A stretch of DNA of 10,743 nt, from positions 1-10,743 of the forward strand of contig JAEHDO010000328.1 of NCBI GenBank assembly GCA_016880375.1, read 5' to 3'. Position 1 is the first letter of the stretch; each line of letters opens with the position of its first letter. The translations under genes were made by a program, and so were the position numbers. A model generated the notes under the pieces. The model ran no database searches. It was not told where the DNA came from and saw only the letters and a program-made list of their open reading frames with translations. The stretch comes from Betaproteobacteria bacterium (GTDB lineage: Bacteria; Pseudomonadota; Gammaproteobacteria; Burkholderiales; Rhodocyclaceae). Positions 3,286 through 6,281 of this stretch are shown in pieces.

Positions 3286-3303
3286 TGAATGAACAATCAT
3301 TCA
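3286..3303. promoter_or_regulatory. Operator 3: perfect palindrome upstream of bcrB-like gene
   Basis: TGAATGA-ACAA-TCATTCA, a perfect 7-bp inverted repeat with a 4-bp spacer, centred about 32 bp upstream of the bcrB-like ATG. It has the same form as the two sites in the ligase/SDR intergenic region and as the B. subtilis FadR (TetR family) operator consensus. It implies that the bcrB-like gene has its own regulated promoter. I could not find a convincing -35/-10 pair here; TTGCAA at 3307-3312 is a weak -35 candidate on the minus strand. Confidence 0.75.
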
Positions 3304-3348
3304 AGTTTGCAAGCAGGAGAGGGCAGCCTTTTCGCGAGGCAGGGAGGC

Positions 3349-4527
3349 CTACCCTGCGGACGGTTGCTGGTAGGACGCCAGGGTCTGGCGGGCGATGATG
3401 AGCTGCTGCACTTCGGTGGCGCCCTCATAGATGCGCAGGGCGCGAATTTCTCGGTAGAGCCTTTCCACCGGATGGCCGCAGACGACGCCGAGTCCGCCCC
3501 ATATCTGCACGGCGCTGTCGATGACCTGCTGCGCCGTCTCGGTGGCCGTCATCTTGGCCATGGCCGCCTCGCGGGTGACGTTGCGGCCCCGGTCGCGCAG
3601 CCAGGCGGCGCGATAGGTGAGCAAAGCGGAAGCGTCGATGCCGGTGGCCATCTGTGCCAGCTTGGCCTGGGTGATCTGAAAATCCGCGAGGGTCTGGCCG
3701 AACATCTTGCGGCGGGTGGCGCGGAAGAGCGCCTCGTCGAGGGCGCGGCGGGCGAAGCCCAGCGCGGCGGCGGCGACCGAGGTGCGGAAGATGTCAAGGG
3801 TCTGCATCGCCACCTTGAAGCCCTGACCGGGTGCGCCCACCAGGTTTTCGCGCGGAATGCGGCAGCTTTCGAAGCGCAGGCGGGCGAGCGGATGCGGCGC
3901 GATCACCTCGATGCGTTCGGCGATCTCGAAGCCGGGCGTATTCGCCTCGACGACGAAGGCCGACAGGCCTCGCGAGCCGGGCGCTTCGCCGGTGCGGGCG
4001 AAGACGACATAGAAATCGGCGATGCCGCCGTTGGAGATCCAGGTCTTCTCGCCGTCGAGGACGTAGTGGTCGCCCTCGGCGCGGGCCGCGCAGGCCATGG
4101 CGGCCACGTCGGAACCGGAACCCGGCTCCGAGAGGGCGAAGGCGGCGATCGCCTCGCCTGCGGCCACCTTGGCGAGGTAGCGCTGCTTCTGCTGCGGCGA
4201 GCCGTGCAAGGTGAGGGCGCCCGAGCCCAGCCCCTGCATGGCGAAGGCGAAATCGGCCAGGCCGGAGTGGCGCGCCAGCGTCTCGCGGATCAGGCAGATC
4301 GAGCGCGTGTCGATGGCGTCGAATCTGCCGCCGCAGTCCGTGCCGCCGACGGCGTAGCGCAGCCAGCCGTCACGGCCCAGGCGTTTTACCAGTTCGCGGC
4401 AGGCGGAATCCACGTCGGCAGGGTGATCGCCGCCGGTGTTCGGCGGAACCCAGGCTTCGAGATCCCGCTCCAGCCGGCGGTGGGCGTCGTCGAAGAACGG
4501 CCAGTCGAGATAGGTCTTGTCGCTCAC
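3349..4527 (-). CDS. Acyl-CoA dehydrogenase
   Basis: A 392-residue flavoprotein of standard ACAD length. It has the [10 protein letters not shown] signature (131-140), the FAD-contacting TWISNGG (162-168), a QTLADFQ segment (278-284), [21 protein letters not shown] (342-362) and the C-terminal IYEGATEVQ, in which Glu368 is the expected catalytic base. It should oxidise a saturated acyl-CoA to the 2-enoyl-CoA with electrons passed to ETF. The start is GTG at 4527, preceded by AGGA with a 4-nt spacer; a stop 18 nt upstream in the same frame rules out an earlier start. It lies 28 bp downstream of the ligase gene and is presumably co-transcribed with it. In an aromatic CoA cluster the likely substrate is an alicyclic or ring-opened dicarboxylic acyl-CoA (cyclohexane-carboxyl-CoA or pimelyl-CoA derivative), but the sequence does not decide which. 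Confidence 0.9.
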
Positions 4528-4555
4528 GGTGTCCTCGCCTGAAGGTCAGCTTGCG

Positions 4556-6097
4556 TCATGATGCAGGATTCCGGAGCATTTCGCGCAGCCGGAAGCGCTG
4601 CATCTTGCCCGTCGCCGTCTGTGGCATCTGCTTCAGGAAGCGGATGGTGCGCGGGCATTTGTAGATGGACAGCGTTGATTTGAAGGTCTGCAGCAGCGCC
4701 TCGGTCAACGCGGCCTGGTCGGCCTCCGGATCGCCGGGCACGGCGAAAAGTGCGATTCGCGTCAGCCCATCTTCGTTCAGATAGCCGACTACCGCGGCCT
4801 CCGCCACGCCGGGCATGGACAGGGCGCAGGCTTCGATTTCGGCCGGGCTGACCCATTGGCCCGAGATTTTCAGCATGTCGTCGCCGCGGCCCATGTGGTA
4901 CCAGCGGCCCTCGGCGTCGAAGCGAAACATGTCTCCAGGGAAGTACCAGCCGTCGCGCAGGGCGCGCCTCGTCACCTCCGGCAGGTTCCAATAGCCGACG
5001 AACTGGCAGGGTGTACGGATGGCGATCAGTCCGGGTGACTCCGGCGTGGTGATGTCCCTGCCGTCTTCGCCGACGAGGCGTACCTCGGCCCACGGCACCG
5101 GCCGGCCGGACGAACCGGCGCGGGAATCCTCCGGCCGGTTGACCAGGAAGAGGAACACCGTCTCCGAAGAGCCGATGCCGTCGCAGATCGGCTTGCCGGC
5201 CAGCTCCAGCCAGTCCTCGTAGAGCGACTCAGGCAGCTTCTCGCCGGCGGAGACGAAATGCCGGATGCGGCGGAAGGAGGGCTGCACCGGAGCGCCTTCC
5301 CGCAGCAGGTTGCGGTACATCACAGGGGTGCTGAAGAACACGTCCGGCCGATGGCGCTCGACGGTTGACATGATCAGCTTAGGTTCAGGCCAGGCCGGCG
5401 ACAGGATGACGGTGGCGCCGCATTGCAGGCCGCCCATCAGCGAATGACCGAGGGCGAAACCGAAAAATATCTTTGAAGTGGTGAACACGCGGTCGCCGGG
5501 ACGCATGCCGAGCAGCTCGCGCTCGAGGCAGTCGGCCACCCGTGCGGTGCGGTGGGGGTGCATTACCGCCTTCGGCTTGCCCGTCGTGCCGGACGAATAC
5601 AGCCAGAAGCCGACCTCCTCCGGATCGACCAGCACCGATTCGAGCCGATCCGTCTGCCCGGCGAGGAACTCGGCGTGTCCGAGATAGGGTGGCAGCGATG
5701 CCTTGCCAAGAATGATGGCGAGCGGCGGCGCAGCCATGCCCCCGACCGCGCTTTCATAGAGATCGAGAAAATGGGCATCGACGAAGATGGCGCTGCAGCC
5801 GCTGTCCTCGATGACGAAACGCAGGTCGCGCGGCGCCAGCCGCACATTGAGCGCGACGGCGACGGCACCGATACGCAGCGTGCCGAGATAGGCGGCCACC
5901 AGTTCGGGCGAGTCGTCCATCAGGAACAGCACCCGCCCGCCGCGCGCGATGCCCTGCGCCTTCAGTGCGTTGCCGTGGCGGTTGACCTCGGCGTTCAGTT
6001 CCCGGTAGCTGACCTCACGGTCGCCACAAAGGAGGGCGATCTGCTCGCCGAGGCCCATGGCTAGCGGCCTGCCGATGATCTCGTCTGCAGCATTCAT
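4556..6097 (-). CDS. Benzoate/hydroxybenzoate-CoA ligase family protein (AMP-forming)
   Basis: An ANL-superfamily ligase of 513 residues from the chosen start. The P-loop-like A3 motif [16 protein letters not shown], the A5-like [13 protein letters not shown], the A7/A8 stretch GDMFR...[20 protein letters not shown] and the A10 motif [13 protein letters not shown] (Lys498, the adenylation lysine) are all present. The segments [25 protein letters not shown] and [11 protein letters not shown] are typical of benzoate/4-hydroxybenzoate-CoA ligases. It should activate an aromatic acid with ATP and CoA in the cytoplasm. ATG 6097 is preferred because AAGGA precedes it by 4 nt and the protein then begins [12 protein letters not shown]; alternative in-frame starts are ATG 6109, ATG 6130 and GTG 6154, without better ribosome binding sites. 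It is the first gene of the leftward operon, preceded by a TTGACA promoter and an operator. 3-Hydroxybenzoate is the favoured substrate on context. Confidence 0.9.
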
Positions 6098-6195
6098 GGA
6101 GTCCTTCATGATCCCGATCTCAAGGTTCATTGTTTGCGCGACATACGCGGGCACTCATCGCCGTTTGCAGTGCTGCCTGATCCGCAACGGCACAA

Positions 6196-6213
6196 TGATT
6201 GAACACTCATTCA
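6196..6213. promoter_or_regulatory. Operator 1: near-perfect palindrome over the ligase promoter
   Basis: TGATTGA-ACAC-TCATTCA, a 7-4-7 inverted repeat with one mismatch in the arms. It covers the -10 hexamer and the adjoining half of the spacer of the leftward ligase promoter. It is 98 bp upstream of the ligase ATG at 6097. A bound dimer here would block RNA polymerase, so it reads as a repressor site. Confidence 0.75.
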
Positions 6214-6226
6214 TCTTGATTGTCAA
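6198..6226 (-). promoter_or_regulatory. Sigma70-like promoter for the ligase-ACAD operon
   Basis: On the minus strand a perfect -35 TTGACA (6226-6221) is followed after exactly 17 bp by TTCAAT (6203-6198, 4 of 6 to the -10 consensus). Transcription would start near 6190. The -10 lies inside operator 1. Confidence 0.55.
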
Positions 6227-6249
6227 GTTATTGCATTTGTTAATAATAG

Positions 6250-6278
6250 TTGACACATAAAAATGAATGAGCAATCAT
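6250..6278 (+). promoter_or_regulatory. Sigma70-like promoter for the SDR-crotonase-tetR operon
   Basis: A perfect -35 TTGACA at 6250-6255 is followed after 17 bp by AATCAT at 6273-6278 (4 of 6 to the -10 consensus). Transcription would start near 6285, giving a leader of about 65 nt before the SDR ATG. The -10 lies inside operator 2. Confidence 0.5.
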
Positions 6279-6281
6279 TCA
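6264..6281. promoter_or_regulatory. Operator 2: perfect palindrome over the SDR-operon promoter
   Basis: TGAATGA-GCAA-TCATTCA, a perfect 7-bp inverted repeat with a 4-bp spacer. Its centre is 68 bp from that of operator 1. It begins 8 bp downstream of the TTGACA -35, almost the mirror image of operator 1 (7 bp), so both divergent promoters carry the site in the same place. Confidence 0.78.

Follow-up and report, generated by a model that had tools for sequence, protein, structure and literature searches.

The closest described counterpart of the system considered here is HbdR of Aromatoleum sp. CIB, a TetR protein that reportedly represses three hbd promoters, recognises the operator ATGAATGA-N4-TCATTCAT and responds to 3-hydroxybenzoyl-coenzyme A (CoA) and benzoyl-CoA. 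Three palindromes of the related form TGAATGA-N4-TCATTCA are present on a stretch of 10,743 nucleotides (the window) from a Betaproteobacteria bacterium of the Rhodocyclaceae, comprising the entire contig C520 of its assembly (2.40 Mb, 555 contigs, 83% complete). The operator consensus of the fatty-acid regulator FadR of Bacillus subtilis also matches these arms. The palindromes are located among genes for a lone benzoyl-CoA-reductase-type subunit O (bzdO/hbdO-type), an acyl-CoA dehydrogenase (acd), a 3-hydroxybenzoate-CoA ligase-like protein (hbdA), a short-chain dehydrogenase (SDR), two enoyl-CoA hydratase family proteins (ECH1 and ECH2) and a TetR-family regulator. They are very probably bound by the TetR protein encoded beside them, and the locus is best read as a local three-site HbdR-type regulon of this protein, with a probability of roughly 0.8.

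A search of the whole window at up to three mismatches returned three matches, termed operators 1, 2 and 3 (Table 1), with 0, 1 and 0 mismatches, respectively. The earlier note on this DNA had reported the same three 18-bp palindromes, two perfect and one mismatched, and no further full copy in the window, and both statements are borne out. Operators 2 and 3 are 68 bp apart between the diverging hbdA and SDR operons, and operator 1 directly precedes the O gene. The 18-mers of operator 2, including its arm mismatch, and of operator 3 are identical in three related loci, L011 (Candidatus Desulfobacillus denitrificans, complete genome), L012 and L053, where operator 1 is also kept in position with one spacer base altered (TGAATGAACGATCATTCA). 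The 7-4-7 core of the reported HbdR pattern is thus found at three places, with good promoter evidence for two; the outer A and T that flank this core are both present at operator 2 only, and one of the two is present at each of the other sites. In the own assembly, the window's three sites are the only matches at up to two mismatches, and the reversed-pattern control gave 0; many genomic copies outside promoters, which the earlier note had named as an argument against a regulon, were therefore looked for in this assembly and no such copies were found.

The motif tracks the TetR gene. Relatives of the regulator were found at 114 loci, of which 80 were kept; the association was counted on all 80 and gene maps were made for 55 (L011-L065). 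At a TetR identity of at least 57% (L011-L056), the motif is present at 0-1 mismatch in 42 of 46 loci, and the four loci without it (L016, L018, L026 and L040) are contigs starting inside ECH1 or the SDR gene, with the upstream part cut off. The fraction is 3 of 9 at 44-53% identity (L057-L065) and 10 of 25 at 32-41% (L066-L090). Across these 80 loci (1.30 Mb), the N4 spacer gave 45 perfect and 32 one-mismatch matches, and spacers of 1, 2, 3, 5, 6, 7, 9 and 10 gave no match at 0-1 mismatch. Spacers of 0 and 8 gave 23 and 31 such matches, of which 21 and 31, respectively, overlap N4 matches, as would be expected from the 4-bp repeat in the arms.

A second count covered 399 genomes of the order, seven of which hold the TetR gene at an E-value of 1e-30 or better and 11 of which hold a perfect motif. 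All five genomes with a TetR identity of at least 59% carry a perfect motif on the same contig as the TetR gene, and the association is significant over all seven TetR genomes (Fisher p 1e-7) as well as without the own genome (p 3e-6). The two counts are not fully independent, as L037 and L045 appear to be shared with G329:C22 and G355:C52, respectively. In the complete genome of Candidatus Desulfobacillus denitrificans, three of the five places at up to two mismatches, including both perfect ones, are at the TetR locus; the genome-wide motif listing covers G400 in part. The recognition helix of the regulator reads VS[TI]GLIYQYF in most of the closer relatives, and among the plasmid relatives (five records) none reaches 60% identity.

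Operators 2 and 3 each cover the -10 box of a promoter. A promoter scan of positions 3200-6400 found two promoter-like sites where 0.3 are expected, namely the TTGACA-N17 promoter of the SDR operon and another site at 6220-6247 between the operators. The hbdA promoter was read in the alignment and is unflagged by the scan, which demands an A at position 2 of the second hexamer. Boxes and spacing of both TTGACA-N17 promoters are conserved in four of four genomes, with the operator covering the -10 box each time. In each of these genomes operator 2 has an identical arm mismatch, which gives the -10 box 4 of 6 consensus matches instead of the 3 of 6 that a perfect arm would leave, and therefore may have been kept for promoter strength. 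As for the earlier claim that all three sites are at promoter positions, operators 2 and 3 lie over divergent promoters as stated, whereas operator 1 lies between the same-strand acd and O genes, where the four-genome alignment has no convincing -35 box. Operator 1 may therefore serve a weak or activator-dependent promoter, or may block transcription arriving from hbdA-acd. FNR-type sites (TTGAT-N4-ATCAA, up to two mismatches), sought as anaerobic activator sites, occur five times in the window and in none of the operator regions. Taken together, the motif-TetR association and the promoter geometry argue for the local three-site regulon proposed in the earlier note, in which an acyl-CoA-type TetR protein would control an aromatic-acid cluster.

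The same regulator and operator are found on the hbd clusters of Aromatoleum. The window's TetR protein shares 69-73% identity (best segment) with copies in Aromatoleum and Azoarcus sp. Aa7 that have the same neighbour genes, and in the Aromatoleum clusters the TetR, SDR, ECH1, ECH2 and ligase genes stand together with N, O, P and Q genes. In three of three Aromatoleum hbd clusters (L110, L111/L112 and L115), the motif occurs with 1-2 mismatches before hbdN and before the SDR gene, and it precedes a third operon (second SDR and acd) in two of the three mapped clusters. The ligase of Aromatoleum anaerobium, from the same kind of cluster, reaches 1046 bits on the HbdA model and passes its cut-off of 1000. 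By contrast, the four bzd loci of G399-G402 (L105-L108, 18-19 kb around each) have no motif at up to two mismatches. The novelty implied for the regulon in the earlier note is thus not upheld, since an orthologous regulator and its operator already sit on these hbd clusters, and together with the reported HbdR system this means that the operator finding most likely adds a member to a regulon already known. A literature search for HbdR, the operator string and 3-hydroxybenzoyl-CoA turned up no description of this regulator.

Two other explanations of the palindromes have to be weighed against this regulon. Chance can be set aside as negligible: the window by itself has just three copies, a small number, but shuffled windows gave a mean of 0.19 matches and reached three in only 1 of 200 shuffles, and the sites are conserved in relatives. 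A chance origin was accordingly rejected on the shuffle control and on the spacer control across the TetR loci. It is also very unlikely that the sites serve a FadR-type fatty-acid repressor encoded elsewhere while the local TetR protein binds something else. Such a repressor would fit the resemblance of the arms to the B. subtilis consensus, the presence of FadR among the structures near the predicted TetR fold, and the genomes that have a perfect motif and no such TetR gene. Yet the motif follows the local TetR gene, and the own assembly is without the extra copies that a fatty-acid regulon would need. The earlier note had called the regulator a FadR-like TetR protein. Its TetR nature holds, with a TetR_N domain (PF00440, 62.5 bits) and a TetR fold; membership of the FadR family was rejected, as the protein scores 59.9 bits on the FadR model NCBIfam NF053878, for which the cut-off is 200, although its predicted fold resembles those of several CoA-binding TetR proteins, among them AibR, KstR2 and FadR, and of others. 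In the available parts of the main texts of PMC9795900, PMC6449355, PMC6449761 and PMC5597230, the strings TGAA, TGAATGA and TCATTCA do not occur.

Several observations nevertheless count against the HbdR-type regulon. A perfect motif is present in 6 of the 392 order genomes without the TetR gene, and the two TetR genomes at 42-47% identity have none. The missing -35 box leaves operator 1 with less promoter evidence than the other two sites. HbdA is by far the best family for the ligase, but the score falls just below the cut-off (Table 1). Binding, repression, ligand, autoregulation and subunit exchange are all deduced from sequence.

Two further observations concern the distribution of the motif. 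Perfect motifs in genomes without such a TetR gene are at L096, L097, L099, L100 and L101 (in G094, G141, G335, G247 and G274, respectively), with G090 as the sixth such genome; about 3 kb around these five motifs contain no match to the window's proteins, FAH and PaaK left aside. Relatives in Nocardia and Gordonia (L066-L074, 33-36% identity) have a one-mismatch copy, TGAATGTACGTTCATTCA, at a near-constant distance of ~5.7-6.1 kb upstream of the TetR gene, and the operator type may therefore be old in this TetR group.

The apparently new element is the gene behind operator 1. In the window and in L011, L012 and L053, the operator precedes a lone O gene with no N, P or Q match beside it, and this gene is an open frame that is 92-95% identical among the four genomes. 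The window's O protein keeps the equivalents of the catalytic Cys95, Cys128 and Cys380 and of Glu65, His131 and Trp46 of BzdO. When O proteins were grouped by locus label (eight hbd-locus, seven bzd-locus), the columns fixed within four groups comprised 11 split by locus type, 11 split by lineage and 0 split crosswise. Of the columns split by locus type, six cluster at residues 39-57 (binomial p 0.0014) and correspond to BzdO residues 43-45, 47, 53 and 61 by alignment to PDB 8s02. In that structure, as described in PMC11971306, Trp46 of BzdO lies at the benzoyl ring; hydrogen bonds link Ser44 and Ala45 to Glu65, beside the cluster-bound water. The hbd-locus O proteins have Ala instead of Ser44, Gly instead of Ala45 and Ser at residue 47, and leave Trp46, Glu65, His131, Tyr97, Gln274, Tyr298, Leu302 and the three cysteines unchanged. 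All eight hbd-locus O proteins have this HbdO-type strip flanking Trp46, and none of the seven bzd-locus ones does; among 120 listed of 1693 homologues of the window's O protein, 12 have a strip of the HbdO kind (e.g., GWTFDAIPTA) and the others listed are of the BzdO kind. A single clade of hbd-locus O proteins, tried as proof from the whole tree, failed, and the one-clade tree was not rejected (p 0.231).

It is possible, at somewhat less than even odds, that this HbdO-type subunit replaces BzdO on a shared BzdN and BzdPQ, by which a substrate-sensing repressor would switch the specificity of the reductase. The proposal is drawn from gene content and active-site residues. The census of reductase subunits (whole-genome matches above family cut-offs; the part including the ATPase family covered eight of ten genomes) gave two N, two O and two Q genes in Aromatoleum (G403, G404 and G405), two N, two O and one Q in Sterolibacterium (G402), and one N, two O and one Q in G399, G400 and G401. 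Matches to the ATPase family, to which both P and Q belong, fit these numbers and occur in pairs at the bzd loci. With the same reserve, the lineages can be arranged in a series, from a whole second reductase in Aromatoleum, through a second NO pair sharing the ATPase in Sterolibacterium, to a second O alone in the Desulfobacillus clade and the window. Within one genome, the hbd- and bzd-type proteins are 87-89% identical for N and 75-78% for O, a pattern to be expected if specificity resides in O and N is shareable. According to PMC11971306, which also reports expression of BzdNO of Aromatoleum sp. CIB, the complex between the PQ and NO modules is most possibly transient, so that sharing of subunits becomes plausible.

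Other data weigh against an exchange of subunits, or leave room for different partners. The own assembly, 83% complete, yields a single O match and none for N, Q or the ATPase family, so that subunit sharing rests on the relatives. In the tree of whole O proteins, grouping follows lineage (support 90/95, not starred) rather than locus. A second, distant reductase-like set with N-, O- and ATPase-type genes, a possible partner, is present in G399 and G401 and was not found in G400; at L117 (G399 C1:1908000-1920000, Candidatus Desulfobacillus denitrificans), this set is nearer to the Bcr models, below their cut-offs. The absence of N, P and Q genes beside the O gene in L011, L012 and L053 would also fit a relic of a lost hbdNOPQ operon with a leftover operator and no working partner. 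However, the conserved open frame, the retained catalytic residues and the retained operator and its position make such a relic improbable.

In the proposed mechanism, the palindromes would act as operators of an HbdR-type TetR repressor for anaerobic 3-hydroxybenzoate degradation. A TetR dimer would cover the spacer and the -10 box of two divergent promoters, for hbdA-acd leftwards and SDR-ECH1-hbdR-ECH2 rightwards, and would also occupy the third site directly before the O gene. As hbdR is within the rightward repressed operon, the protein would be expected to repress its own synthesis. The repressor would be released by an aromatic CoA thioester made by HbdA, for which the precedent is 3-hydroxybenzoyl-CoA and possibly benzoyl-CoA. 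With operator 1 placed before an unaccompanied O gene whose product has an HbdO-type active site, the exchange subunit would be supplied on induction. Combined with N, P and Q of the benzoyl-CoA reductase encoded elsewhere, it would yield a 3-hydroxybenzoyl-CoA reductase.

The ligand could instead be an alicyclic CoA ester that arises later and is shared across a wider module of SDR, ECH1, acyl-CoA dehydrogenase and ECH2, with the anaerobic hbd genes as one client of a broader cyclic-acid regulon, although this is considered less likely than an aromatic ligand. BzdO above its cut-off is found in 0 of 12 further TetR genomes (ten with the motif-bearing TetR kind and two, G103 and G055, more distant), and the ligases beside the module in L043 and L020 resemble cyclohexanecarboxylate-CoA ligase, below its cut-off; the ligand may therefore be an alicyclic CoA ester there. 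The ligand-domain residues Y118, R119, H173, W175 and K178 are furthermore invariant in 53 aligned TetR proteins. Against this stand the two ligands reported for HbdR, the presence of N and O genes in the L020 cluster, and the ligase of L023, which is nearest to HbdA, though far under the cut-off. Besides these ligases, the same TetR protein and operator are seen in a module beside a LigB-type dioxygenase and an FAA hydrolase in L023, and beside periplasmic binding proteins in L039 and L043, the latter with the cyclohexanecarboxylate-CoA-ligase-like gene; the genomes of L023, L043 and L039 contain no BzdO above cut-off.

The remaining genes frame this regulon. The left part of the window has the end of an FAA-hydrolase gene followed by genes for a maleylacetoacetate-isomerase-type protein, a thioesterase and a peroxiredoxin; the leftward O, acd and ligase genes and the rightward SDR, ECH1, TetR and ECH2 genes follow, and the right end holds a leftward methyltransferase gene and the end of an AMP-binding ligase gene. 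ECH2, which adjoins the regulator gene in many relatives but not all, is probably in the same transcript as SDR-ECH1-TetR. The methyltransferase gene and the ligase end are also present in L011, L012 and L053, and of these L011 alone has the FAA-hydrolase piece; the isomerase, thioesterase and peroxiredoxin genes were found in none of the three. Positions 1-1930, with the isomerase being of maleylacetoacetate/maleylpyruvate type, resemble an aerobic gentisate-type set beside the anaerobic cluster.

Table 1. Operators, promoters and genes of the putative regulon in the window.
Feature	Position	Strand	Evidence
Operator 1 (perfect)	3286..3303	.	22 bp before start codon of bzdO/hbdO-type gene; pattern search
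Operator 2 (one arm mismatch)	6196..6213	.	Over -10 of hbdA promoter
Operator 3 (perfect)	6264..6281	.	Over -10 of SDR-ECH1-TetR promoter
Promoter TTGACA-N17-TTCAAT for hbdA-acd	6198..6226	-	Read by eye in alignment
Promoter TTGACA-N17-AATCAT for SDR-ECH1-TetR	6250..6278	+	Promoter scan, 10/12 matches
Lone benzoyl-CoA-reductase-type subunit O, Aromatoleum HbdO active-site strip	1956..3263	-	TIGR03191 858.4 bits, cut-off 448.6; PDB 8s02 BzdO
Acyl-CoA dehydrogenase (acd)	3349..4527	-	Family profiles; 87-90% identical in L011, L012, L053
3-Hydroxybenzoate-CoA ligase-like (hbdA)	4556..6109	-	NF053567 HbdA 931.1 bits, cut-off 1000
Short-chain dehydrogenase (SDR)	6351..7097	+	Nearest model BadH, TIGR03206 258.5 bits, below cut-off 431.2
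Enoyl-CoA hydratase family protein ECH1	7136..7954	+	NF006107 485.9 bits, cut-off 330
TetR-family regulator, HbdR-type, presumed binder of the three sites	8035..8781	+	PF00440; motif association; fold
Second enoyl-CoA hydratase family protein ECH2	8786..9550	+	PF00378

A lone O gene behind an operator opens two questions to experiment: which component of a class I benzoyl-CoA reductase determines ring specificity, and whether one subunit is exchangeable. From this locus it appears possible that exchange of a single component lets a bacterium redirect a complex enzyme, and the candidate specificity residues sit beside the substrate ring in the solved structure (PDB 8s02; PMC11971306). The operator furthermore widens the reach of the HbdR-type regulon, reported for Aromatoleum, to a lineage close to Candidatus Desulfobacillus as well as to a broader range of related clusters.

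Compared with known systems, the regulator differs from FadR (YsiA) of Bacillus subtilis in remaining below the family cut-off, with 20-21% identity over the fold, and in its targets, as Bacillus-type FadR controls fatty-acid operons genome-wide, whereas the predicted targets here are aromatic genes at a single locus of the own assembly. MbdR of Azoarcus (Aromatoleum) sp. CIB matches the window's TetR protein over residues 23-72 only and serves 3-methylbenzoate genes. The O protein belongs to the same family as the O subunit of the class I benzoyl-CoA reductase BzdNOPQ and has the catalytic residues identified in BzdO, but has no adjoining N, P and Q genes, carries other residues around Trp46 and stands behind an operator that the four bzd loci lack. 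With the reported HbdR system of Aromatoleum sp. CIB, the window shares the TetR regulator, the set of three putative catabolic promoters and the operator pattern. It differs in that the hbdA and SDR operons diverge from an operator pair, that the operator arms are nearer to perfect than the Aromatoleum sites examined, and that the putatively regulated reductase gene is a single O subunit, the sole subunit encoded at the locus in the window and in L011, L012 and L053, in place of the four-subunit hbdNOPQ. What is new relative to these systems is operator 1 before a lone BzdO-type subunit with a strip of the HbdO kind.

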